A stretch of DNA of 33,988 bases, from IMG/VR virus record IMGVR_UViG_3300046167_000405, positions 1 through 33,988 of that record. The stretch is one strand, 5' to 3'. The notes below the pieces were generated by a model that saw only the letters and a program-made list of their open reading frames with translations, was not told where the DNA came from and did no database searches. The translations under genes were made by a program, and so were the position numbers. This DNA comes from a virus. Shown here one piece after another: positions 1 through 33,988 of this stretch (position 1 is its first letter; the number at the start of each line of letters is the position of its first letter).

Positions 1-28
1 TTTACATATTTATAAAAAACTATTGTTT

Positions 29-36
29 CATTTTTG
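29..36 (+). promoter_or_regulatory. T-rich CATTTTTG element before portal start
   Basis: CATTTTTG followed by CA and then the GTG start is kept in both copies of the portal leader (also 30620-30627), although neighbouring bases differ. It resembles the Bacteroidota -7 element TAnnTTTG with C in place of T. No matching TTTG is seen about 21 nt upstream, so promoter activity is uncertain. Confidence 0.3.
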
Positions 37-41
37 CAATA

Positions 42-1262
42 GTGAATTTATTTGGGTTTGAAATCAAAAGAATCAATCCAGTTCTATCTGCAAAAAAAGG
101 TTTCTTAAATGCAAACTTTGGTGGAATGATTGGAAGAACACCAGTCACTGAAGAAACCGCAATGGGTTTATCAGCGTATTGGGCTGGAGTAAGAAGAATT
201 ACAGAATCAGTGGCAATGTTGCCAGTTGAAGTTTTTCGCAAACAAAACGGAAGGCGTGAAATAGTTGCACATCCAACAGAATACTTGTTGAATGCTGAAG
301 CAAATTATGAATCAATTTCTTTTGACTTCACACAAATATTAATCACATCCGCAATCAATCATGGTAATGGTTTGGCAATTATTGAACGTGATCAATTTGG
401 AACACCAACATCATTGGTCAATGTAACTCGTGAACAATGCGAACCAATAAAATATGATGATGAGATTTATTGGAAAGTTCAAGTCAAAGAAGCATACAAT
501 GAAACTGAATCGTTGCTTGTCAAAGATGCTGACATGATTAATCTTCGTGGGTTTGGAGTTGATCCAGTTGTTGGACTTTCGGCAATACAAGCACACAAAC
601 AAAATCTTGGTTTATCAATTGCAGCACAAGATTATGGGGCTGATTTTTTTAACAAAGGGAGTAGGATTGACGGCTTCATCGAATATCAGGGTGTTTTAAA
701 ACCTGAAACAAAAGATGCAATTAGTCAACAATGGGCTGCAAACTATGGACCAAATGGGACACGTGGAACTGCAATACTTGATGCTGGTTCAAAATATCAT
801 CGTATTGGACTTCCTCCAGCAGATGCTGAATGGATTTCAACACGTAAATTCCAAAAGAATGAGATTGCAACAATCTTGGGAATACCATCACACATGATTA
901 ATGAGATGGAGAATTCAACTTTTTCAAACATTGAACACCAGTCAATTGAATTTGTGACTTATTCAATTGGAACTTGGATTGAAAAGATTGAACAAGAATA
1001 CAGACGAAAACTATTAAAAGATACGGAAAAACTTGACCATTATTTTAAGCACAATGTTGATCGTTTACTTCGAACTGATGTCAAAACAAAAGGTGAATAT
1101 TATCGACTGATGACTGACATTGGTGCTTATAGCATAAACGATGTACTTGAACTTGAGGATAGGAATCCAATTGAGGGTGGTGATGAACGTTATGTCCAAA
1201 TAAATAGAATACCTATTCAGGACATGGATAATTATTATAAAAAGGAAGATGGCGAGTTATAG
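42..1262 (+). CDS. Phage portal protein (HK97-type), copy 1
   Basis: A 406-residue protein with the architecture of HK97-family (Phage_portal) portal proteins. Residues about 38-66 carry the typical stretch with AYWAGVRRITESVAMLPVEV, and the central part contains a SNIEHQSIEFV segment typical of this family. Portal proteins form the dodecameric ring through which terminase packages DNA and to which the neck proteins attach. The start is GTG; no earlier in-frame ATG exists and both copies of the gene keep the GTG. It overlaps the protease gene by 14 nt, the usual portal-protease-capsid order. The second copy at 30633-31853 differs at only 7 of 406 residues: two near the N-terminus (I/V, T/S), two in the middle (EYQG versus EFAG) and three near the C-terminus. 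Confidence 0.95.
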   Translation: MNLFGFEIKRINPVLSAKKGFLNANFGGMIGRTPVTEETAMGLSAYWAGVRRITESVAMLPVEVFRKQNGRREIVAHPTEYLLNAEANYESISFDFTQILITSAINHGNGLAIIERDQFGTPTSLVNVTREQCEPIKYDDEIYWKVQVKEAYNETESLLVKDADMINLRGFGVDPVVGLSAIQAHKQNLGLSIAAQDYGADFFNKGSRIDGFIEYQGVLKPETKDAISQQWAANYGPNGTRGTAILDAGSKYHRIGLPPADAEWISTRKFQKNEIATILGIPSHMINEMENSTFSNIEHQSIEFVTYSIGTWIEKIEQEYRRKLLKDTEKLDHYFKHNVDRLLRTDVKTKGEYYRLMTDIGAYSINDVLELEDRNPIEGGDERYVQINRIPIQDMDNYYKKEDGEL

Positions 1263-2154
1263 TGATTATCCTGATGCGGTTTCAAACAATGCAAAACGTG
1301 GCATTGAATTAAATGAAAAGGTTGGCAATAAATGTGCAACACAAGTTGGCAAAGTTAGAGGTCAACAACTTGCAAATAAAGAACCAATCACTGAAGATAC
1401 CGTCAAAAGAATGTTTTCATATTTGTCACGTGCTGAAGTGTATTATGATCCTGACAACACTGAATCGTGTGGAACTATATCGTTTTTGTTGTGGGGTGGC
1501 AAAGCTGGATTGAGATGGTCAGAAAGTAAATTAAAAGAAATTGATAAAAATAGAAAAGTAATGAATAAAATTGAAAGACTTGCAGAGGTTCGAAATATAA
1601 ATGAAGTTGAACGAACTGCACAATTTGTTATATCAACAGAATCCATTGACAGACATGGTACATCATTCAAACTTGATGGATGGGATTTGTCAACTTATGA
1701 CCGCAATCCAATTGTTGGATACAATCACGAAGTGAGTGGTTCTAATCCTGATACTATCATTGGAACATCACGAGTGTTTAGAGATGGAGATGCGTTGATT
1801 GGTGAAGTAACATTTGAACGTGAAGGAAACAATCCTTTGGCTGACAAAGTATTTAACAAAATGCAAGATGGTATTTTAAAGATGGCAAGTGTTGGAGCAA
1901 TTCCACATGAGTATCGTTATGGCAACAAAGAAGATGAGGACAGAAACACGATTTATTTCACACGACAAGAATTGGTTGAATGGTCAATTGTGAGTGCTGG
2001 TTCAAATCGTGATGCGTTCAAACGAAGTGCTGACCAAGTTGATGAACTTAAAAAATCACTTGAGGTTGTTGAAGAAGAAATTGAAATGGGACTTGAAACA
2101 AAATCAGCTTTGCGAAATTATAACAAAGTTAAAATTGTTACAAAGTACCTATAA
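1249..2154 (+). CDS. HK97-type prohead protease with extra N-terminal domain, copy 1
   Basis: A 301-residue protein. Residues about 115-270 match the prohead protease (peptidase U35) pattern: His160 in the GYNHEVSG segment, Ser214 in MASVGAIP, and an acidic residue near 244 in QELVEWSIVSAGS, giving a likely Ser-His-acid triad. The protease cleaves the scaffold part of the capsid protein during head maturation. Residues 1-100 form a separate domain beginning SDYPDAVSNNAKRG and ending near LWGGKAGLRWSESKLK; I do not recognise its function. It is nearly invariant between the two copies. The gene overlaps portal by 14 nt and lies 37 nt before the capsid gene. The acidic C-terminal tail varies in length between copies: the other has two extra residues. 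Confidence 0.93.
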   Translation: MASYSDYPDAVSNNAKRGIELNEKVGNKCATQVGKVRGQQLANKEPITEDTVKRMFSYLSRAEVYYDPDNTESCGTISFLLWGGKAGLRWSESKLKEIDKNRKVMNKIERLAEVRNINEVERTAQFVISTESIDRHGTSFKLDGWDLSTYDRNPIVGYNHEVSGSNPDTIIGTSRVFRDGDALIGEVTFEREGNNPLADKVFNKMQDGILKMASVGAIPHEYRYGNKEDEDRNTIYFTRQELVEWSIVSAGSNRDAFKRSADQVDELKKSLEVVEEEIEMGLETKSALRNYNKVKIVTKYL

Positions 2155-2164
2155 TCAAATAATT

Positions 2165-2191
2165 GATTTTTGTAGTATTAAAATTTAGAAA
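2165..2191 (+). promoter_or_regulatory. Leader of major capsid gene
   Basis: ATTGATTTTTGTAG followed by TATTAAAATTTAGAAA precedes the capsid ATG. The copy at 32761-32787 reads GTATAAAATTTAGAAG, and nearly the same string (GTATAAAATTTAGGAA) precedes the tail tube gene at 5036-5051. GATTTTTG (2165-2172) is one base from the Bacteroidota -7 consensus. I infer a late promoter and/or strong translation leader; there is no Shine-Dalgarno sequence. Confidence 0.4.
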
Positions 2192-3400
2192 ATGAGAAAT
2201 AGTAAAGTAATAAGAGAAGAAATTGGTGAAGTGAAAACTTCCCTTGATGCTCTTGAAAATTTAGTATCTGAAGAAAATAGAGATTTTTCTGAAGATGAAA
2301 AAGTATCATTTGATACAAACATGGAAAGATTAACTGAATTAGTTGATGAACTTCCAAAAGTAGAAAAAGAAGAAGAAATAAGAATGAAAGCAGCAAATTT
2401 AGGTGGAAGTCCAGTAGTGGCAGAAACTAAAGAAGAAAAAGAAATAGTAAGAGAATTTTCTTTTGGTAAAGCGGTAAGAGCAGCATTTGGTGGAAAACTT
2501 GATGGTGTTGAATTAGAAATGGCTCAAGAAGGTCAAAAAGAAATGACTGCAATTGGTCGAAGTGCAAATGGTGTTGTTATACCATCAATGATTTTGAACA
2601 GAGCGGTTGTTACTGAAAACGGAACTTCAGGAATTGAAACTCAAAGTTTTGTTGATGCAGTTTATGCAAACACAATTCTTGATGATCTTGGTGTTACTCG
2701 TGTAACTTCAACAACTGACCAACGTATTCCAATTTTGGGTGCAGTTACAACTCAATGGGAGGGAGAAACTGATGCAAGTGCAGATGGAGGTTCTGCAATG
2801 AGCAAAAAAGACCTTGCTCCAAAAAGACTTGCAAGTTTTGTCGATTTTAGTAAACAAGCCGCTATGCAGCACAACGAATCACTTGAATCAGCATTGAGAA
2901 ACTCAATTGCTCAAGCGGTTGGAGCAAAAGTTGAATATGCTTTATTTACTGATGATTCTTCAAACGGATCTTACAACTATTTAGGTCAAGGAAAAACTCC
3001 AGTAACAAATGCAAACATTACATCATTGATGATGGCACTTGTTGAGGAAGTACAATCAAACAACCACAACAGAGGTAATTTAGGTTTTGCAATCTCAAAC
3101 GATTTGTTTACCGAAGTTTATACTGCTGCACAAGTTAGTGGTGTTAATCCATTAATCATCAATGAAGCTATAATGGGAGTTCAAGCGAAGTTCTCAAACC
3201 AAATTGCTGACATAACTAATCCAGTTGCTTACTATGGTGACTTCTCAAAAGTTCAAATTTGCCAATTCGGTGGAGTTGAGATTTTAGTTGACCCATACAC
3301 ACAAGCGGTTAGCGGAACAAACAGATTAATCCTAAACTCATACTGGGATGCTGCACTTGTACAAGATGCTGCAATCAGCGTGGGTGGCTACACTGGATAA
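2192..3400 (+). CDS. Major capsid protein (HK97 fold), copy 1
   Basis: A 402-residue protein in the position and with the layout of HK97-like major capsid proteins. Residues 1-75 are charged and helical (EEIGEVKTSLDALENLV onward), as expected of the scaffolding delta domain that the upstream protease removes. The mature part begins near residue 85-110 and carries the family-typical GTSGIETQSFVDAVYANTIL and WEGETDAS segments. The C-terminus has EILVDPYTQAVSGTNRLIL, typical of the P-domain strand. The gene has its own leader and is followed 30 nt later by a strong terminator, which suggests separate high expression. The second copy (from 32788) differs at roughly 35-40 positions, mainly in the second half. 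Confidence 0.95.
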   Translation: MRNSKVIREEIGEVKTSLDALENLVSEENRDFSEDEKVSFDTNMERLTELVDELPKVEKEEEIRMKAANLGGSPVVAETKEEKEIVREFSFGKAVRAAFGGKLDGVELEMAQEGQKEMTAIGRSANGVVIPSMILNRAVVTENGTSGIETQSFVDAVYANTILDDLGVTRVTSTTDQRIPILGAVTTQWEGETDASADGGSAMSKKDLAPKRLASFVDFSKQAAMQHNESLESALRNSIAQAVGAKVEYALFTDDSSNGSYNYLGQGKTPVTNANITSLMMALVEEVQSNNHNRGNLGFAISNDLFTEVYTAAQVSGVNPLIINEAIMGVQAKFSNQIADITNPVAYYGDFSKVQICQFGGVEILVDPYTQAVSGTNRLILNSYWDAALVQDAAISVGGYTG

Positions 3401-4801: not shown

Positions 4802-5031
4802 GAATAGAATTGACAAAGGATTATGCAATCCATGCAAGAACACTACCTGAAGGAACACAATTGCGTGTATCTAACAAATTAGGTAAAGAATTAATTGGGT
4901 TAAAAGTAGCAAAAGCCCTTGATGGTTTTACTTTTGAAGAAGAAATTGAACACATCATTGAAGTGGCAATAGAAAATGAAGAAACTCCAAAAGTTAAAAA
5001 AGTTACAAAGAAGAAAAAATCTAATAAGTAA
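4798..5031 (+). CDS. Small lysine-tailed protein, unknown function
   Basis: A 77-residue protein I do not recognise. Residues 1-45 look like a compact alpha/beta fold (LPEGTQLRVSNKLGKELI), then an acidic stretch, then a strongly basic tail (KVKKVTKKKKSNK). It is translationally coupled to the gp10-like gene by a 4-nt overlap and comes just before the tail tube gene, so a minor role in head-tail assembly is possible but only inferred from position. Confidence 0.6.
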   Translation: MRIELTKDYAIHARTLPEGTQLRVSNKLGKELIGLKVAKALDGFTFEEEIEHIIEVAIENEETPKVKKVTKKKKSNK

Positions 5032-5059
5032 TATTGTATAAAATTTAGGAAATAAAAAA
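5029..5059 (+). promoter_or_regulatory. Leader of tail tube gene
   Basis: TAATATTG (5029-5036, one base off TAnnTTTG) is followed by GTATAAAATTTAGGAAATAAAA, sharing a 13-nt string with the leader of the second major capsid gene copy. A-rich sequence runs up to the ATG at 5060. I infer a late promoter/leader for a highly expressed structural gene. Confidence 0.4.
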
Positions 5060-18597: not shown

Positions 18598-18918
18598 TTA
18601 AAAGTTCTTATCATAATTCTTTCGTTCAACTTCCAATTTAAGTAAATTAAAAGACATCATACCAATGATGTGTGAATCAGTTGGAAATTTATATTTCCAT
18701 CCTTTTGAATATCCTTTGTTTATGTAATAAAAATAAGCAGCAGCCAATTTGCCAGTGTTTTTTTTAAATATAACACAAGCAGTATGATCTGACATTGGTA
18801 TTACTTCATCAACCTGAAACGTTTCTTCGTTAAAATTACCTTCACGATTCATGCTTGAAAATTTCTTTGCTACAATTTCGGATTCTTTTTTTAGTTCTAT
18901 TGCAATTTGTTTATTCAT
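18598..18918 (-). CDS. Unknown protein in leftward operon
   Basis: A 106-residue protein I do not recognise. It looks globular alpha/beta (VDEVIPMSDHTACVIFKKNT, then AAAYFYYINKGYSKGWKYKF). It overlaps the transglycosylase stop by 4 nt and precedes the membrane-protein pair. Position suggests a link with lysis or host physiology; no motif supports a specific role. Confidence 0.65.
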   Translation of the reverse strand: MNKQIAIELKKESEIVAKKFSSMNREGNFNEETFQVDEVIPMSDHTACVIFKKNTGKLAAAYFYYINKGYSKGWKYKFPTDSHIIGMMSFNLLKLEVERKNYDKNF

Positions 18919-22221: not shown

Positions 22222-22773
22222 ATGATAAAAAACACAAAGATTTCAATCTTTAAATCACTTTTTAAGTCATCGGATGTCCCCTATGATGTCCAACTTGACC
22301 AATCACTTAAAAGAATAAGAGAAGGAAAGTCAAAACACATCATTGATAAGATGATGACATTGGAAGGTGATGCACGTTCCAAACTAAAAAATCAATTACC
22401 TTGTATCATCTTTGGTGGTGTATTTACACAACGTAAAAAGTCAGGACTTAAAGAACATAGTGGTCTTATGGTATTGGATTTTGATAAGATACCAAATAAT
22501 AAGATGGATATGATGTTTGACCAGCTGAAACAAAACAAACATATTGTTTCAGTATTTATGTCACCATCACGAAATGGATATAAAGCCATTGTGTCAATAC
22601 CAAAATGTAATGCAAAAGAACATGAACAATATTTTAAGCAGTTTAACAAGGATCACTTGTATGACTATTTTGATGGTGCTACTTGCAACGTTGACAGAGT
22701 TTGTTTCGAATCATACGATCCAAATATTTACATTAATTATGAAGCTATTCAGTATGCATCCAAAACTGGTTGA
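22222..22773 (+). CDS. VirE-N/BT4734-like primase (AEP-type)
   Basis: A 183-residue domain of the BT4734/VirE N-terminal family, a primase-polymerase related to archaeo-eukaryotic primases. Visible motifs: GLMVLDFDKI with Asp86 and Asp88 as the metal-binding pair, FMSPSRNGYKAIVSIP (Ser114-Gly119), and DRVCFESYDPNIYIN. It makes primers for the helicase encoded next. Its C-terminus runs into the SF3 helicase frame with a 20-nt overlap; in many relatives the two are one polypeptide. Removing one base from the AAAA at 22761-22764 would fuse them into a protein of about 774 residues. Confidence 0.88.
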   Translation: MIKNTKISIFKSLFKSSDVPYDVQLDQSLKRIREGKSKHIIDKMMTLEGDARSKLKNQLPCIIFGGVFTQRKKSGLKEHSGLMVLDFDKIPNNKMDMMFDQLKQNKHIVSVFMSPSRNGYKAIVSIPKCNAKEHEQYFKQFNKDHLYDYFDGATCNVDRVCFESYDPNIYINYEAIQYASKTG

Positions 22774-24547: not shown

Positions 24548-24550
24548 ATT

Positions 24551-25123
24551 ATGAATATAACAAACGAAGATAATATGGACCTTATGGCAAGGTATGAGGA
24601 CAATCACTTTGACCTTGCTATTGTTGACCCACCATATGGTGGAAATGATGCAATTGGTTTAAAGGATAATAAAAAACAAAGTAAACAAGCTACAAAAAGA
24701 ACAAACTACAAAGTATTTGATAATGTTGCACCAAGTGTTGAGTATTTTAATGAACTAAAAAGAGTTAGTAGAAATCAAATAATTTGGGGAGTAAACTTTT
24801 ATAAAAATTATGATTTAAGTGGTGGCAGATTATGTTGGGATAAAAAAGGAACTGCATTTGGTAGGGCTGAACTTGCTTATTTATCTATGACTAAAAGTGT
24901 TAATATTTGTGAAATTGTATGGAATGGGATGCTTCAACAAGATATGAAAAACAAAGAAATAAGAATACACCCAACCCAAAAACCAGTTAAGTTGTACGAA
25001 TGGCTATTAATGAACTACGCAAAAGAAGGTGATAAAATACTTGATACACATCTTGGTAGTGGCTCAATTGCTATTGCGTGTCATAATTTAGGTTTTGATT
25101 TGACTGCTTGTGAACTTGACTAA
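24551..25123 (+). CDS. DNA methyltransferase (beta-type, N6-A/N4-C), C-terminus frameshifted
   Basis: The intact frame gives 190 residues with the DPPYGG catalytic motif (motif IV, about 26-31) early and the AdoMet-binding motif I-like LDTHLGSGSIAIACHNLGF near the C-terminus: the order of beta-class methyltransferases (N6_N4_Mtase). HPTQKPVKLYEWLL is also typical. The conserved end DKEYYDAAMKRL lies in the +1 frame: removing one base at 25120-25124 extends the protein to 25196 (214 residues). It probably modifies phage DNA against host restriction. Confidence 0.88.
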   Translation: MNITNEDNMDLMARYEDNHFDLAIVDPPYGGNDAIGLKDNKKQSKQATKRTNYKVFDNVAPSVEYFNELKRVSRNQIIWGVNFYKNYDLSGGRLCWDKKGTAFGRAELAYLSMTKSVNICEIVWNGMLQQDMKNKEIRIHPTQKPVKLYEWLLMNYAKEGDKILDTHLGSGSIAIACHNLGFDLTACELD

Positions 25124-25186
25124 GGAGTATTACGATGCAGCTATGAAAAGGTTGAATAATCATAAACTACAACAAAGTTGTTTTAA

Positions 25187-26418
25187 ATGGAGTTAAGAGA
25201 TTATCAAAAGGATATTGTGAGGCGTGGTGTTGACATCATTGCAGACCATCGTTTGCTTTATTTGCAAATGGAAGGTCAGGACTGGCAAAACACTAACATC
25301 ACTATCAATATGTGAAGAACTTGGTGCATCAAATGTTTTATTCATAACTAAAAAGAAAGCCATTAGCAGCATTCAAGATGATTATGATAAGTTTGGGTTT
25401 AGCTTTGATATAACAATAATAAACAATGAATCACTGCACAAAGTAGATGGTGACTTTGATATTTTGGTATCGTGATGAACATCATCGAAATGGTTCGTTT
25501 CCAAAGCCAAACAAATCAACTAAACTAATCAAACAACGTTGGTCCACATTGCCAATGATATTTTTATCAGGTACACCAAATGCTGAATCGTATAGTCAAG
25601 TTTATCATCAATATTGGGTCAGCATACATTCACCATTTAAACAATGGACCAATTTCTACAAATGGTCAAAAGAGTTTGTGAATGTTACCGAACGCAACTT
25701 TGGTTATGCTAATGTCAAAGACTATTCAAGTGCTGACTATAATAAAATAAAACCTTATATTGATAAACATATTATTACATACACACAATCAGAAGCTGGA
25801 TTCGAATCTAATGTCAATGAACACATCTTATGGTGTGATATAAAGGCAAAGCACACATGACATCATTAATACATTAAAGAAGGATAAAATTGTTTTGGGT
25901 AAAGCTGGAGCAATCATAGCAGATACATCAGTCAAGATGAAAAACAAGATACATCAACTTGTGCAGTGGCTCATGTATTCTTGAAGATGGTAGTGTTGTG
26001 ATACTTGACACATCCAAAGCTGAATACATACGTGATAAGTTTAAAGGGCAAAAGATTGGTTTGTTCTATAAGTTTAAAGGTGAACTGGATATTCTTAAAC
26101 AAGTGTTTGGTGATAGCTTATGCACTACATTAGATGAGTTTCAATGGTAGTGATAAGAACATAGCACTTCAGATCATATCAGGTCGTGAGGGCATATCAT
26201 TACGTGAAGCTGATGCGTTGGTGTATTATAATATTGATTTTAGTGCAATCAGTTACTTCCAGTCAAAAGATAGGATGACAACAATGGAAAGGAAGAACAA
26301 TGATGTGTATTGGGTATTTGCTCGAAAGGGTATTGAATCTAAAATATATAAGAGTGTTACTAATAAAAAGGACTATACTTTAAGAATGTTTAAAAGGGAT
26401 TATGAACTACCAAAGTAA
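25187..26418 (+). pseudogene. SNF2-type DEAD/DExH helicase, five frame breaks
   Basis: The restored reading gives about 408 residues: start MELRDYQKDIVRRGVDIIAD, motif I VRTGKTLTS, motif II DEHHRNG, motif III FLSGTPNAES, then a C-terminal lobe with QIISGREGISLREA and motif VI QSKDRMTTMER. The frame is broken near 25271-25275, 25462-25475, 25844-25858, 25957-25963 and 26139-26142. Each break is explained by one extra base, and removing five bases makes the total length divisible by three. Between breaks the sequence keeps perfect family motifs, so either the breaks are sequence errors or the gene is very recently damaged. Such helicases occur next to VRR-NUC nucleases in many phage replication modules. 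Confidence 0.8.
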
Positions 26419-26645
26419 AGTAATAAAGGAATATAAGGACAAAGGGTATATGGTGTTAAACATTATTAGATTAAGTGAGAATGGGTTTCCTGACCTTATG
26501 TGCTTAAAAGATAGTAAGGTTGTGTTTATTGAATGCAAAGACTGGTGCTGATACCTTAAAGCCATTACAACGATATAGGATTGACCAGCTGCGTGAAATG
26601 GGCTTTGAAGCTATGTGTTTGAAGGATGATAAAATAATTTATTAA
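26402..26645 (+). pseudogene. VRR-NUC nuclease, one frame break
   Basis: The restored product has about 80 residues with the VRR-NUC pattern: GFPDLMCLKDSKVVFIECK (the G-x-PD and E-x-K catalytic motif), a Gln in TLKPLQRYRI and LREMGFEAMCL at the end. One extra base near 26536-26542 breaks the frame after IECK. The start overlaps the helicase by 17 nt, a common pairing in phages. The nuclease probably acts on branched or single-strand flapped DNA. Confidence 0.78.
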
Positions 26646-27283: not shown

Positions 27284-27392
27284 TTTGATAGGGATAGGGG
27301 GGTTTGAAATCTACAACAATATGTACTGCAAACGTTCGCGGGGCTTTTTTTACACAAAAGTTAGTTTAGGGTTTGGGAATAATGATGGATAA
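27255..27392 (+). CDS. Possible 45-residue protein
   Basis: A short frame starting MMNIDTFMNNLIGIGGFEI and ending VSLGFGNNDG, overlapping the preceding gene by 29 nt and the start of the homing nuclease by 11 nt. It contains aromatic and basic residues (YCKRSRGFFY) rather than random AT-rich sequence. It may be a remnant of a gene cut off by insertion of the endonuclease. Weak support. Confidence 0.3.
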   Translation: MMNIDTFMNNLIGIGGFEIYNNMYCKRSRGFFYTKVSLGFGNNDG

Positions 27393-28113
27393 AAATAAAT
27401 TTCATAAAAAAGTTGAAGATATGGCTCAAAGAATTGGGTCAGTAAAAAAGGCATTTGATGTTTTAAATAAAGAACATAAAAGTTTTACATCAGATGTATG
27501 TTATAGAAATTGGAAAAGTAAACATAATTTAAAAACTATTATTTCAAGTAATTGCATGATATGTGGTGTTCAAATTAAATCTACAAAAAAAAGAAAATGG
27601 TGCATTGATCATGTAGGTGGTAGAAAAAATAAAAAAATTCCAAAAAAGGATGGCATTTATATAAGCGAAAGAGATTTGTATAGTGTTTGGCATGGAATTA
27701 AATATAGATGCACAAATGAAAAAAGTACATCATTTAAAAATTATGGTGGCAGAGGAATAAAAATATGTGATTTGTGGAATAATGATTTTTATGAATTTGA
27801 AAAATGGTCTTTAGATAATGGCTATAAAAAAGGATTGCAAATAGATAGAATAAACAATAACGGTAATTATGAACCATCAAATTGTCGTTATGTAGAACCT
27901 TATATTAATGCAACAAATAGAAGGTCCTTAAAAAATACCACTGGGTTTATTGGAGTTCATAAAAATACAGAATCTAACACTTATCGTGTTTTAATTAATT
28001 TTAAAAATAAAAGGCACGATTTAGGTAATTTTAAAAATAAGATTGAAGCTGCTATTTTTAGAGATCAATATATTATAAAAAACAATTTACCACACATGAG
28101 AAATTTATTATAA
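27382..28113 (+). CDS. HNH/AP2-type homing endonuclease
   Basis: A 243-residue protein. The N-terminus is basic and helical; a zinc-like CMICG...WCIDHVGG motif follows at about 56-76. The core LYSVWHGIKYRC, YGGRGIKICDLW, LQIDRINNNGNYEPSNCRY is typical of phage HNH-type homing endonucleases; the C-terminus (FIGVHKNTESNTYRVLINFK then HDLGNFKNKIEAAI) is an AP2-like DNA-binding repeat. It lies 1 nt before the terminase small subunit, a common insertion site. The base composition is more A-rich than the neighbours, suggesting separate arrival. Confidence 0.85.
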   Translation: MMDKNKFHKKVEDMAQRIGSVKKAFDVLNKEHKSFTSDVCYRNWKSKHNLKTIISSNCMICGVQIKSTKKRKWCIDHVGGRKNKKIPKKDGIYISERDLYSVWHGIKYRCTNEKSTSFKNYGGRGIKICDLWNNDFYEFEKWSLDNGYKKGLQIDRINNNGNYEPSNCRYVEPYINATNRRSLKNTTGFIGVHKNTESNTYRVLINFKNKRHDLGNFKNKIEAAIFRDQYIIKNNLPHMRNLL

Positions 28114-28114
28114 T

Positions 28115-28591
28115 ATGGGCAAAAGAGGACCAGTACCACCACCAAAAGCAATAACAATTAAAAAGGGTTATTATCAACCATCAAGACATGATGACCCAAT
28201 TGCAGACACGAATGCTTTGCAATGGGTTCACAACGAAGTGCCATCACCACCTGAAGATTTAAATGATGTTGCAAAAAAAATGTGGACTCAACAACTAATG
28301 CAGTCACAAAAATTATATGGTTATATATCATTTATTGACCTGACTTTGTTTAAGGAGTATTGTTATGTGTATAGTGAATTGGAGTGGTTAAAAGAAAATA
28401 CAAAAGGAAGGTTTTACATTGATGACAAGGGTGCAAAAAAAATTGATCCTTTGTATATGGAACTTAATAAATTAAGAAAGGACTTTTTAAGATTGTCACA
28501 AGAGTTTGGTTTTAGTCCATCAGCAAGAACAAGAATCCAATTGCAACAAAAACCTGAAGAAGATAAAGACATATATTCTGATGGCATATAA
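28115..28591 (+). CDS. Terminase small subunit (P27-like)
   Basis: A 158-residue protein with the Terminase_4 (P27) pattern: N-terminal GKRGPVPPPKAITIKKGYYQ, the conserved VPSPPEDLNDVAKKMWTQQL, and the C-terminal FGFSPSARTRIQLQ. It recognises the packaging site and hands DNA to the large subunit. The ATG lies 1 nt after the homing nuclease stop. It overlaps the large subunit gene by 11 nt. Confidence 0.92.
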   Translation: MGKRGPVPPPKAITIKKGYYQPSRHDDPIADTNALQWVHNEVPSPPEDLNDVAKKMWTQQLMQSQKLYGYISFIDLTLFKEYCYVYSELEWLKENTKGRFYIDDKGAKKIDPLYMELNKLRKDFLRLSQEFGFSPSARTRIQLQQKPEEDKDIYSDGI

Positions 28592-30179
28592 AACTAACTT
28601 TAAAAATATTGACCTTGAGAAATACTACTTTGATGAAAGGACTGCAAACATTGTAGTACAATACATTGAAGAAAATGTGAAGCACGTCAAAGGTGACAAA
28701 GCTGGTGAGCCATTTATTTTGGAGCAATGGCAAAAGGATGATATTATAAAACCTTTATTTGGTTGGAAGCACAAAGAAACTGGATTGCGTAAATACACAA
28801 GTGCATACATTGAGATTCCAAAGAAATCAGGCAAATCATTTTTGGCTGCATCAATTGCGTGTGTTTTTATTGACATAGAACGTGAAGGGGGTTCGGAAAT
28901 TGTTGGTGTTGCTTGGGGAAGGAAACAAGCTGGACTTGTGTTTGATGCAACAAAGCAAGTAATACAAAAATCACCAAGATTAAAATCAAAGTGCAATATT
29001 TATCGAAACTCAATCACTGCACCTGATCATATTGGTGGATTAAAAACTTATCAAATATTATCAAAAGAGGCTGGTGGTGAAGATGGTATAAATCCACAAC
29101 TGGCAATCATTGATGAGTTGCACGTTCATAAAAATAATGAAGTTCTTGAAATGGTTGAAAAGTCACAAGGTGCAAGGAAACAACCTTTGTCATTTATTAT
29201 CACAACTGCTGGTTCTGACCTTTATGGTATTGGATACCAAAGACATGAACAAGCCATTGACATTGCAAAGGGATTGATTGAGGATGAATCTCAACTTGTT
29301 TGTATCTATGGAGCGGACAAAGAAGATGATCCATTTGATGAACGTACTTGGAAAAAAGCAAATCCAAACTACAATATAAGTATTGGTAAACGTGCATACG
29401 AAAAGGAAGCAAACAAAGCAATGGTGAGTGCAGCAAGTTTGAACTCATTTAAAAGATACTATCTAAATGTTTGGACACAATCAAAGGATGGATGGATTAA
29501 TGATGAGGTGTGGACCAAATCACATTGGGATTTTGATGATGAGATGTTGCGTGATTATCCTTGTTATGGTGGACTTGATTTGTCATCACGAAGTGACATC
29601 ACTGCTTTTTCATTGGTGTGGAAAATAGATGAAAAGTATTATTCTAAAAATTGGTTTTGGTTGCCTGAAGATAAAGGAACACAATCAGCGGACAAAAAAA
29701 ACATTCATTATCGTGAATGGGTTCGTGATGAATATATTGAAGAAACAAGTGGGAATGTGATTGACTATGATTTTATAATATATAAACTTGGTCAACTTAA
29801 TAAGTTATATGATATACAATCCATTGCATATGATAATTGGAACTCACATCACATTGCACCAAAGTTATATGAAGAAGGATTTGACCTGATTGAGTTTAGA
29901 CAAGGATTTAAATCTATGAATGCACCAACCAAAGAACTTCAGGCAGCGGTTGAAAGTAAAAAGTTTAATCATGGCAACAATCCGGTTTTGCGTTGGATGG
30001 TTGGCAATGCATCGGTGAAGTCTGATCCAGCTGGAAACATAAAACTTGAAAAAGACACACGTTCACCAAACAAAAAAATTGATGGATTGATTTCAAACAT
30101 CATGGCATTTGGTTTGTGGCTTGACAAACCTGATTCAAACAAGTCTTATTTAGAGGATGGCGATTTATATATTATATGA
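28581..30179 (+). CDS. Terminase large subunit
   Basis: A 532-residue packaging motor and nuclease of the Terminase_1 (HK97-like) family. Walker A is the variant PKKSGKS (80-86), Walker B LAIIDELHVH (Asp178, Glu179), coupling motif ITTAGSD (208-213). The nuclease half starts GGLDLSSRSD with Asp333, and a late Asp in NKKIDGLISNI completes the metal site. I chose the ATG at 28581; an earlier in-frame ATG at 28506 would extend it through the small subunit gene with unrelated sequence. Overlaps the next gene by 4 nt. Confidence 0.95.
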   Translation: MAYKTNFKNIDLEKYYFDERTANIVVQYIEENVKHVKGDKAGEPFILEQWQKDDIIKPLFGWKHKETGLRKYTSAYIEIPKKSGKSFLAASIACVFIDIEREGGSEIVGVAWGRKQAGLVFDATKQVIQKSPRLKSKCNIYRNSITAPDHIGGLKTYQILSKEAGGEDGINPQLAIIDELHVHKNNEVLEMVEKSQGARKQPLSFIITTAGSDLYGIGYQRHEQAIDIAKGLIEDESQLVCIYGADKEDDPFDERTWKKANPNYNISIGKRAYEKEANKAMVSAASLNSFKRYYLNVWTQSKDGWINDEVWTKSHWDFDDEMLRDYPCYGGLDLSSRSDITAFSLVWKIDEKYYSKNWFWLPEDKGTQSADKKNIHYREWVRDEYIEETSGNVIDYDFIIYKLGQLNKLYDIQSIAYDNWNSHHIAPKLYEEGFDLIEFRQGFKSMNAPTKELQAAVESKKFNHGNNPVLRWMVGNASVKSDPAGNIKLEKDTRSPNKKIDGLISNIMAFGLWLDKPDSNKSYLEDGDLYII

Positions 30180-30583
30180 AAATACCTAAAAAAATATATG
30201 ATGTTTTAAACAATAAAAGGAACTTTGATTTCTTGTTTCTTGAGATGTTAAGACATCACACCAGTGAAGATGCCTATGATGCTGCACTTGATTTGGTTCG
30301 TGAATATGCACCACATTTTAATCACTACAAAGATTTTGATTCTTATCGTGTGATATTATCAAATAAAAACAATCGTGAAATTGAAGTTCCTGAAGAAATA
30401 ATTGATGCAGTGACAAAAGGCATTGATGACTTGTTTCACAAGCATTTAAAAAAAGTCAAGATTCGAAAAATGGCATATGATCAATGTGTCAAAGAAATAA
30501 ACATTTATTTACCTGACTATAAACCACACAGAAATTATCAATCGTTTAAAGCATTGCAATCAATTAATTTTAAGAAAAAGTAG
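30176..30583 (+). CDS. Unknown protein between terminase and portal
   Basis: A 135-residue, mainly helical, charged protein (KKIYDVLNNKRNFDFLFLEM; EDAYDAALDLVREYAPHFNH) with a basic C-terminus. No family recognised. Coupled to terminase by 4 nt and followed by 49 nt of leader before portal. Position suggests a role in packaging or head assembly, not otherwise supported. Confidence 0.65.
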   Translation: MKIPKKIYDVLNNKRNFDFLFLEMLRHHTSEDAYDAALDLVREYAPHFNHYKDFDSYRVILSNKNNREIEVPEEIIDAVTKGIDDLFHKHLKKVKIRKMAYDQCVKEINIYLPDYKPHRNYQSFKALQSINFKKK

Positions 30584-30632
30584 TTAAATATTTTACATAT
30601 TTATAAAAAAGTATTATTTCATTTTTGCATTA

Positions 30633-31853
30633 GTGAATTTATTTGGGTTTGAAATCAAAAGAATCAATCCAGTTCTATCCGCAAAAAAAGGTTTCTTAAA
30701 TGCAAACTTTGGTGGAATGGTTGGAAGAACACCAGTCACTGAAGAATCCGCAATGGGTTTGTCAGCATATTGGGCTGGTGTAAGAAGAATTACAGAATCA
30801 GTGGCAATGTTGCCAGTTGAGGTTTTTCGCAAACAAAACGGAAGGCGTGAAATTGTTGCACATCCAACAGAATACTTGTTGAATGCTGAAGCAAACTATG
30901 AATCAATTTCTTTTGATTTCACACAAATATTAATCACATCGGCCATCAATCATGGTAATGGTTTGGCCATTATTGAACGTGATCAGTTTGGAACACCAAC
31001 ATCATTGGTTAATGTAACACGTGAACAATGTGAGCCAATAAAATATGACGATGAGATTTATTGGAAAGTTCAGGTCAAGGAAGCATACAATGAAACTGAA
31101 TCATTGCTTGTCAAAGATGCTGACATGATAAATCTTCGAGGGTTTGGAGTTGATCCAGTTGTTGGACTTTCGGCAATACAAGCACATAAACAAAATCTTG
31201 GTTTATCAATTGCAGCACAAGATTATGGAGCAGATTTTTTTAACAAAGGGAGTAGGATTGATGGCTTCATCGAATTCGCAGGTGTTTTAAAACCTGAAAC
31301 AAAAGATGCAATTAGTCAACAATGGGCTGCAAACTATGGACCAAATGGGACACGTGGAACTGCAATACTTGATGCTGGTTCAAAATATCATCGTATTGGA
31401 CTTCCTCCAGCAGATGCTGAATGGATTTCAACACGAAAATTCCAAAAGAATGAGATTGCAACCATTCTTGGAATACCATCTCACATGATTAATGAAATGG
31501 AAAATTCAACGTTTTCAAACATTGAACATCAGTCTATTGAATTTGTGACTTATTCAATTGGTACGTGGATTGAAAAGATTGAGCAAGAATACAGACGAAA
31601 ACTATTAAAAGATACAGAAAAACTTGACCATTATTTTAAGCACAATGTAGATAGATTATTGCGAACTGATGTCAAGACAAAAGGTGAGTATTATAGATTG
31701 ATGACTGACATTGGTGCTTATAGCATTAATGATGTACTTGAGTTAGAGGATAGAAATCCAATTGAAGGCGGTGATGAACGTTATGTGCAAATTAATAGAA
31801 TACCTATTGATGACATGAAGGAATACTATAAAAAAGAAGATGGCGAGTTATAG
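30633..31853 (+). CDS. Phage portal protein, copy 2
   Basis: A 406-residue portal, the second version of the gene at 42-1262, with 7 amino-acid differences, all conservative or in exposed-looking positions (for example EFAG for EYQG and the C-terminal PIDDMKEYYKK for PIQDMDNYYKK). GTG start kept. Here its true upstream context is visible: it follows the terminase region and a small unknown gene, the normal order in this phage group. Confidence 0.95.
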   Translation: MNLFGFEIKRINPVLSAKKGFLNANFGGMVGRTPVTEESAMGLSAYWAGVRRITESVAMLPVEVFRKQNGRREIVAHPTEYLLNAEANYESISFDFTQILITSAINHGNGLAIIERDQFGTPTSLVNVTREQCEPIKYDDEIYWKVQVKEAYNETESLLVKDADMINLRGFGVDPVVGLSAIQAHKQNLGLSIAAQDYGADFFNKGSRIDGFIEFAGVLKPETKDAISQQWAANYGPNGTRGTAILDAGSKYHRIGLPPADAEWISTRKFQKNEIATILGIPSHMINEMENSTFSNIEHQSIEFVTYSIGTWIEKIEQEYRRKLLKDTEKLDHYFKHNVDRLLRTDVKTKGEYYRLMTDIGAYSINDVLELEDRNPIEGGDERYVQINRIPIDDMKEYYKKEDGEL

Positions 31854-32751
31854 TGATTATCCTGAAGCGGTTTCAAACAATGCAAAACGTGGCATTGAGT
31901 TAAATGAAAAGGTTGGCAATAAATGTGCAACACAAGTTGGAAAAGTTAGAGGTCAACAACTTGCAAATAAGGAAGCAATCACTGAAGATACTATCAAACG
32001 CATGTTTTCATATTTGTCACGTGCTGAAGTATATTATGATCCTGACAACACTGAAGCGTGTGGAACAATATCGTTTTTGTTGTGGGGTGGCAAAGCTGGA
32101 TTGAGATGGTCAGAAAGTAAATTAAAAGAAATTGATAAAAATAGAAAAGTAATGAATAAAATTGAAAGACTTGCAGAGGTTCGAAATATTAACGAAGTTG
32201 AACGTACTGCACAATTTGTAATATCAACCGAGTCAATTGATAGACATGGAACATCATTCAAACTTGATGGATGGGATTTGTCAACTTATGACAGAAATCC
32301 AATTGTTGGATACAATCATGAAGTGAGTGGTTCTAATCCGGATACTATAATCGGAACATCACGAGTGTTTAGAGATGGTGAAGCATTGATTGGTGAAGTA
32401 ACATTTGAACGTGAAGGAAACAATCCAATTGCTGACAAAGTATTTAATAAAATGCAAGACGGCATTTTGAAGATGGCAAGTGTTGGTGCAATACCGCATG
32501 AATATCGTTATGGCAACAAAGAAGATGAAGATCGAAACACAATTTACTTTACTCGCCAAGAATTGGTTGAATGGTCAATTGTGAGTGCTGGTTCAAATCG
32601 TGATGCGTTCAAACGAAGTGCTGACCAAGTTGATGAACTTAAAAAATCACTTGAGGTTGAAGAAGAAATTGTTGAACAAGAAATGGGACTTGAAACAAAA
32701 TCAGCTTTGCGTAATTACAACAAAGTTAAAATTGTTACAAAGTACATATAA
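31840..32751 (+). CDS. HK97-type prohead protease, copy 2
   Basis: A 303-residue version of the protease at 1249-2154. The catalytic His and Ser motifs (GYNHEVSG, MASVGAIP) are unchanged. Differences include D/E at YPEAV, P/A at KEAITED, V/I at DTIKR, S/A at TEACG, and a two-residue insertion in the acidic tail (EVEEEIVEQEMG). The N-terminal extra domain is again intact. Confidence 0.93.
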   Translation: MASYSDYPEAVSNNAKRGIELNEKVGNKCATQVGKVRGQQLANKEAITEDTIKRMFSYLSRAEVYYDPDNTEACGTISFLLWGGKAGLRWSESKLKEIDKNRKVMNKIERLAEVRNINEVERTAQFVISTESIDRHGTSFKLDGWDLSTYDRNPIVGYNHEVSGSNPDTIIGTSRVFRDGEALIGEVTFEREGNNPIADKVFNKMQDGILKMASVGAIPHEYRYGNKEDEDRNTIYFTRQELVEWSIVSAGSNRDAFKRSADQVDELKKSLEVEEEIVEQEMGLETKSALRNYNKVKIVTKYI

Positions 32752-32787
32752 ACAAATAATTGATTTTTGTAGTATAAAATTTAGAAG

Positions 32788-33988
32788 ATGAGAAATAGTA
32801 AAGTAATAAGAGAAGAAATCGGTGAAGTGAAAACTTCGCTTGATGCTCTTGAAAATTTAGTTTCTGATGAAAATAGAGATTTTTCTGAAGAAGAAAAAGT
32901 GTCATTTGACACAAACATGGAAAGATTAACTGAATTAGTTGATGAACTTCCAAAAGTAGAAAAAGAAGAAGAAATACGAATGAAAGCAGCAAATTTAGGT
33001 GGCAGCCCAGTAGTGGCAGAAACCAAAGAAGAAAAAGAAATAGTTAGAGAATTTTCTTTTGGTAAAGCGGTAAGAGCAGCATTTGGTGAAAAGCTTGATG
33101 GTGTTGAATTAGAAATGGCTCAAGAAGGTCAAAAAGAAATGAACGCAATTGGTCGTAGTGCTAATGGTGTTGTTATTCCTTCAATGATTTTGAACAGAGC
33201 GGTTATAACTGAAAACGGAACTTCAGGAATCGAAACTCAAAGTTTTGTTGATGCAGTTTATGCAAACACAATTCTTGATGATCTTGGTGTTACTCGTGTA
33301 AGCACAACAACTGATCAACGTATTCCAATTTTGGGAGCAGTTACAACTCAATGGGAAGGTGAAACAGATGCAGCTGCTGATGGTGGTTCTGCAATGACTA
33401 AAAAAGACCTTGCACCACGAAGAGTTGCATCATATGTTGATTATAGCAAGCAAGCCAGTATGCAGCATAACGAATCACTTGAATCTGCATTGAGAAACTC
33501 AATTGCTCAATCTCTTGGGTCCAAAATCGAATATGCAGTTTTTACTGATGATTCTGCAAATGGTGCATATGATTATTTAGGTAACGGAAAAACTCCAGTG
33601 ACAAATGCAAACATCACAAACTTGATGATGGCATTAGTTGAGGAAGTTCAATCTAATAACCACAACAGAGGTAATTTAGGATTTGCAATCTCAAATGATT
33701 TATTCAATGAAGTTTACACAGCTGCACAAGTTAGTGGTGTAAATCCATTAATCATTGATGAGGCAATAATGGGAGTTCAAGCGAAGTTTTCAAACCAAAT
33801 TGCTGACATAACAAATCCAGCGGTTTATTATGGTGACTTTTCAAAAGTTATGATTGCACAATTTGGTGGAGTTGAGATCTTGGTTGATCCATACACACAA
33901 GCAATCAGCGGAACTAATAGATTAATCCTTAACTCATATTTCGATATGAAATTAGTTCAGGATGCCGCTATTTCAGTCGGAACATTCG
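32788..33988 (+). CDS. Major capsid protein, copy 2 (partial at window end)
   Basis: Open to the window edge after 400 complete codons; by alignment with copy 1 only two codons and the stop are missing. The delta domain is nearly unchanged, but the mature part differs at many sites: SYVDYSKQASM for SFVDFSKQAAM, SLGSKIEYAV for AVGAKVEYAL, ANGAYDYLGNGK for SNGSYNYLGQGK, VMIAQF for VQICQF, YFDMKLV for YWDAALV. This is roughly 90% protein identity by eye, compared with about 98% in portal. Confidence 0.93.
   Translation, partial: MRNSKVIREEIGEVKTSLDALENLVSDENRDFSEEEKVSFDTNMERLTELVDELPKVEKEEEIRMKAANLGGSPVVAETKEEKEIVREFSFGKAVRAAFGEKLDGVELEMAQEGQKEMNAIGRSANGVVIPSMILNRAVITENGTSGIETQSFVDAVYANTILDDLGVTRVSTTTDQRIPILGAVTTQWEGETDAAADGGSAMTKKDLAPRRVASYVDYSKQASMQHNESLESALRNSIAQSLGSKIEYAVFTDDSANGAYDYLGNGKTPVTNANITNLMMALVEEVQSNNHNRGNLGFAISNDLFNEVYTAAQVSGVNPLIIDEAIMGVQAKFSNQIADITNPAVYYGDFSKVMIAQFGGVEILVDPYTQAISGTNRLILNSYFDMKLVQDAAISVGTF

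Follow-up and report, generated by a model that had tools for sequence, protein, structure and literature searches.

Diverged copies of a head module at the two ends of a phage contig: alleles of co-occurring strains, probably joined by assembly

The stretch of DNA analysed here (the window) is a whole contig record of IMG/VR, 33,988 bp long and classed as linear, with portal, protease and capsid genes near each of its ends. The two copies of this head module are alleles of one locus that come from different genomes of co-occurring strains, since both alleles are linked to the usual neighbours of the locus in other contigs and the copies are not sisters in a phylogenetic tree. We consider it highly probable that the repeat is an assembly read-through of a unit genome of ~30.6 kb, closed with the sequence of a relative.

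According to this reconstruction, the contig would cover about 1.11 genome lengths of a cos-ended tailed phage of ~30.6 kb that is present as many co-occurring strains. Its start would lie a short way before the portal gene, in the strain A head allele, and from there it would make one full turn of the genome, passing the joined cos site and the terminase. At the fork before the portal it would not close on itself but enter the second strain's head allele, and it would end near the end of the capsid gene, where the alleles diverge again. The join appears to have been made by the assembler and not in a cell. The features that bear on this reading are collected in Table 1.

Table 1. Positions of the head-module copies, packaging genes and other features in the window
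Feature	Position	Strand	Remarks
Copy 1 head module	1-3342	+	strain A allele, left contig end; Pfam PF04860, PF04586, PF05065
Copy 1 portal	42-1262	+	
Copy 1 prohead protease	1249-2154	+	
Copy 1 major capsid	2192-3400	+	
Mosaic segment	1957-10915	+	8,960 bp without mismatch to contig 3300046167_000181 (L008/L190)
Helicase and nuclease-like region	25181-26600	+	broken by six window-only insertions; alignment to four relatives
Inferred cos site, 10-nt cohesive end CGTTCGCGGG	27333-27342	+	recurring contig ends; length and polarity inferred
HNH endonuclease	27373-28113	+	phrog_374, E 5e-46; between cos and terminase small subunit
Terminase small subunit	28115-28591	+	phrog_83, E 1.3e-17
Terminase large subunit (TerL), ATPase and nuclease domains	28563-30179	+	PF20441, PF03354; phrog_9
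Small conserved gene, 135 aa	30176-30583	+	between terL and portal
Allele fork	30503-30610	+	exact match of window and L005; then window continues into copy 2, L005 into copy 1
Copy 2 head module	30592-33988	+	second-strain allele, right contig end; 92.2% to copy 1
Copy 2 portal	30633-31853	+	
Copy 2 protease	31840-32751	+	
Copy 2 capsid	32788 to contig end	+	cut off

The repeat and the divergence of its copies

Comparison of the 33,988-bp window with itself by BLAST detected a single long repeat, 30592-33938 against 1-3342, with 92.2% identity and 248 mismatches. The copies are collinear at an offset of 30,591 bp, apart from small indels toward the end of the protease. Each of them abuts one contig end: in copy 1 the homology begins with contig base 1, and in copy 2 it stops ~50 bp short of the last base. 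An earlier note on this DNA had described a diverged head module repeated with a 30,591-bp period, and the self-comparison bears this out.

If the copies have diverged to this extent, where do their differences lie? In each copy the reading frames of portal, protease and capsid are open. Third codon positions hold 61 of the 75 differences in the portal gene (12/2/61 at codon positions 1/2/3), 44 of the 52 in the protease gene (8/0/44) and 87 of the 130 in the capsid gene (24/19/87). The NG86 estimates of dN/dS are about 0.016/0.276 for the portal, 0.014/0.276 for the protease and 0.059/0.431 for the capsid copies. All three genes are under purifying selection in both copies, with dN/dS well below 1. 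Reading frames and codon-position counts thus confirm that, as had been claimed, both copies are open and differ mainly at synonymous sites. The divergence is uneven, being higher in the C-terminal part of the capsid (dS 0.59 vs 0.22), which indicates that the head alleles are themselves mosaic.

Head alleles in related contigs

Scans of IMG/VR with the portal, the terminase and a later gene gave well over a hundred related contigs. Two portals were found in none of the 66 related loci bearing portal or capsid, as seen within their 10-kb flanks, and in none of the nine long relatives (19-30 kb) that were searched as whole records; these have one portal each, and the window has two. Linkage of the portal to the 135-aa gene upstream of it, which follows terL, was seen in 45 of the 66 loci, and linkage of the capsid to downstream genes in 44. 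In relatives terL lies upstream of both head alleles.

The copy 1 allele was recovered, wholly or almost identical, in two other contigs, where it follows terL: L004 equals copy 1 exactly over 231-2367, and L005 equals it exactly over 1-487 and 1477-3396. The first base of the window corresponds to position 30592, which lies inside the fork stretch, 19 bp ahead of the first difference between the alleles. This 19-bp distance was also considered as a clue to the identity of the assembler and was set aside as too weak. The downstream link of copy 2 comes from one contig, L191, whose first 543 bp are identical to 33417-33959 of the window, that is, to the end of copy 2, and which runs beyond the capsid stop and through the tail region. 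For its final 29 bases the window matches L028 and not L191.

The copies were sisters in 0 of 200 bootstrap trees of 45 sequences, and copy 1 grouped with L005 and L008 at 100/100. No contig was found in which the exact terminase of the window is joined to either head allele, and no other contig with a comparable end overlap. The search for a contig near-identical to 12-30.6 kb of the window, which as the full copy 2 strain would locate the strain switch, likewise gave none.

The inferred cos site

The start of about a dozen contigs, which come from different samples, falls at the equivalent of 27343/27344 to within a base or two (among them L010, L019, L020, L022, L026, L028, L036, L038, L052 and L060), and in L027 an Illumina adapter stands directly before GCTTTTTTTACAC. 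The equivalent of 27332 is the last base of two contigs, L113 and G003; the latter spans the 29,827 bp from one side of the site round to the other and has one portal. These coincident ends point to a cos site whose overhang would be 10 nt long, and probably 3′, since neither kind of contig end retains the 10 bases after library end repair. The 10 bases themselves, CGTTCGCGGG in the window, vary among relatives but in most cases begin with CGT, and variant 10-mers include CGTTCGTGGA and CGTGTGTGCA.

Under cos packaging the virion DNA would be one unit without terminal redundancy, and the overlap in the window would therefore come from replicative DNA or from assembly. The description of the genome as circularly permuted, given in the earlier note, is probably wrong for the virion, as the coincidence of contig ends speaks for a genome with cos ends; it is the contig alone that is permuted, relative to the cos site. 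Read from coincident ends across samples, the site likely marks the physical ends of the genome in an uncultured phage group.

Strain mosaicism and probable consensus errors

The mosaic segment is flanked on both sides by several-percent divergence from the same contig, 3300046167_000181. Such boundaries may reflect recent recombination or chimeric assembly across strains, and some of them may be natural, as phages recombine. Exact stretches common to strains measure 100-9000 bp. The population thus mixes strains having long exact stretches in common, and this is a setting for contig breaks and crossovers.

Seven single-base insertions occur only in the window, near 22758, 25272, 25472, 25847, 25958, 26139 and 26540. 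They put frameshifts into otherwise conserved genes, those of the primase and of helicase-like and nuclease-like proteins. The one at 22758 is based on L005, L053 and the indel lists, two of its five alignment rows being misplaced. All of these changes are insertions, and several stand outside homopolymers. Probably they are consensus errors in a thinly covered stretch and not signs of gene decay; some of the source reads were perhaps long.

Gene order around the packaging region

The HNH endonuclease gene, which comes immediately after the inferred cos site, has no counterpart in some relatives; there the alignments pass from ~27335-27377 straight to 28191-28199. Between the 135-aa gene and the portal (30584-30632), the relatives L004, L006, L020, L032 and L047 carry strain-specific inserts of about 0.07-2 kb. 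In relatives at a greater distance (L061, L068 and L071 among them), a homologue of the minus-strand gene at 18599-18918 is located between the terL region and the portal. A 48-bit match was seen at 4990-5059. The DNA methyltransferase gene at 24551-25180 is missing or replaced in several relatives, and their alignments jump from 24549 to 25181.

Origin of the repeat

The reading of the repeat as the overlap of an assembled ~30.6-kb genome closed with a relative had already been put forward in the earlier note, and it is now supported by the position of the contig ends, linkage, copy number and the tree, and by the mosaic of strains seen in the window. The repeats stand at both contig ends, their period of 30,591 bp matches the length of the unit genome, for which G003 with its 29,827 bp is the guide, and both variants occur elsewhere as single copies with standard neighbours.

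Could the join have arisen in a cell? A hybrid intracellular concatemer, likewise among the readings of the earlier note, in which coinfecting strains recombined in the conserved terminase region and successive units therefore carry different head alleles, is improbable, although several observations would suit it. The window passes through the inferred cos site without a break, which would be expected of replicative DNA, the exact stretches between strains make homologous recombination plausible, and the seven insertions suggest error-prone, possibly long, reads. If true, this would be strain recombination caught during replication. However, nothing requires it. The contig ends sit where the alleles fork or diverge, as is predicted by assembly and not by a random molecule, and the crossing of the cos site is not special, being seen in L053, L058 and L075 as well.

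That the overlap is the terminal redundancy of a circularly permuted virion chromosome packaged by the headful mechanism is very unlikely. Headful phages do have molecules longer than a unit, but the redundant ends of one molecule are identical and the copies in the window are 8% different; moreover, the ends of contigs from many samples coincide at a site next to terS, as cos packaging predicts. Headful (pac) redundancy was rejected on these two grounds.

Least credible of all is a real duplication, tandem or dispersed, that left one genome with two diverged head modules: open copies under purifying selection would agree with it, but this proposal of the earlier note was rejected on linkage, copy number and tree, as all relatives searched have one module, each allele has ordinary neighbours in other contigs, the copies are not sisters and their spacing equals the unit genome.

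Comparison with known systems

Judged by protein similarity, the phage has head and packaging genes of the HK97 type. As in HK97-type cos siphoviruses, the predicted order is HNH, TerS, TerL, portal, protease and capsid with the inferred cos site before terS, and the families of TerL, portal, S78 protease and HK97-fold capsid were all matched in the window. The difference is one of distance, the nearest named phages having less than 60% identity to the window phage in these proteins: about 40% in TerL, about 36% in the portal and about 25% in the capsid with Cellulophaga phage phi39:1. Bacterial genomes searched with terL for a host gave nothing beyond matches of 31% identity, in Serratia and Xenorhabdus, and these are uninformative.

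Concatemeric phage DNA in environmental clones resembles the window in that more than one genome unit lies in contiguous sequence. Units within one concatemer should be identical, whereas those of the window differ by 8%.

Assembly closure with a second strain, the reading preferred here, has its nearest parallel in metagenome assemblies whose contigs are broken or falsely extended at within-population variation, an issue that COBRA treats; the breaking of contigs by assemblers was tested in that study (PMC10914622). The window is similar in that its ends sit at strain forks and its length is that of the unit genome plus a remainder. It differs in that its overlap is 92% identical and not an exact k-mer overlap, and therefore end-repeat tests class the contig as linear. 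A complete genome of ~30.6 kb would thus have been filed as a linear fragment of 33,988 bp with inflated gene counts, because an end overlap from another strain escapes exact end-repeat tests. As biology the repeat would be ordinary, and its use is as a caution.
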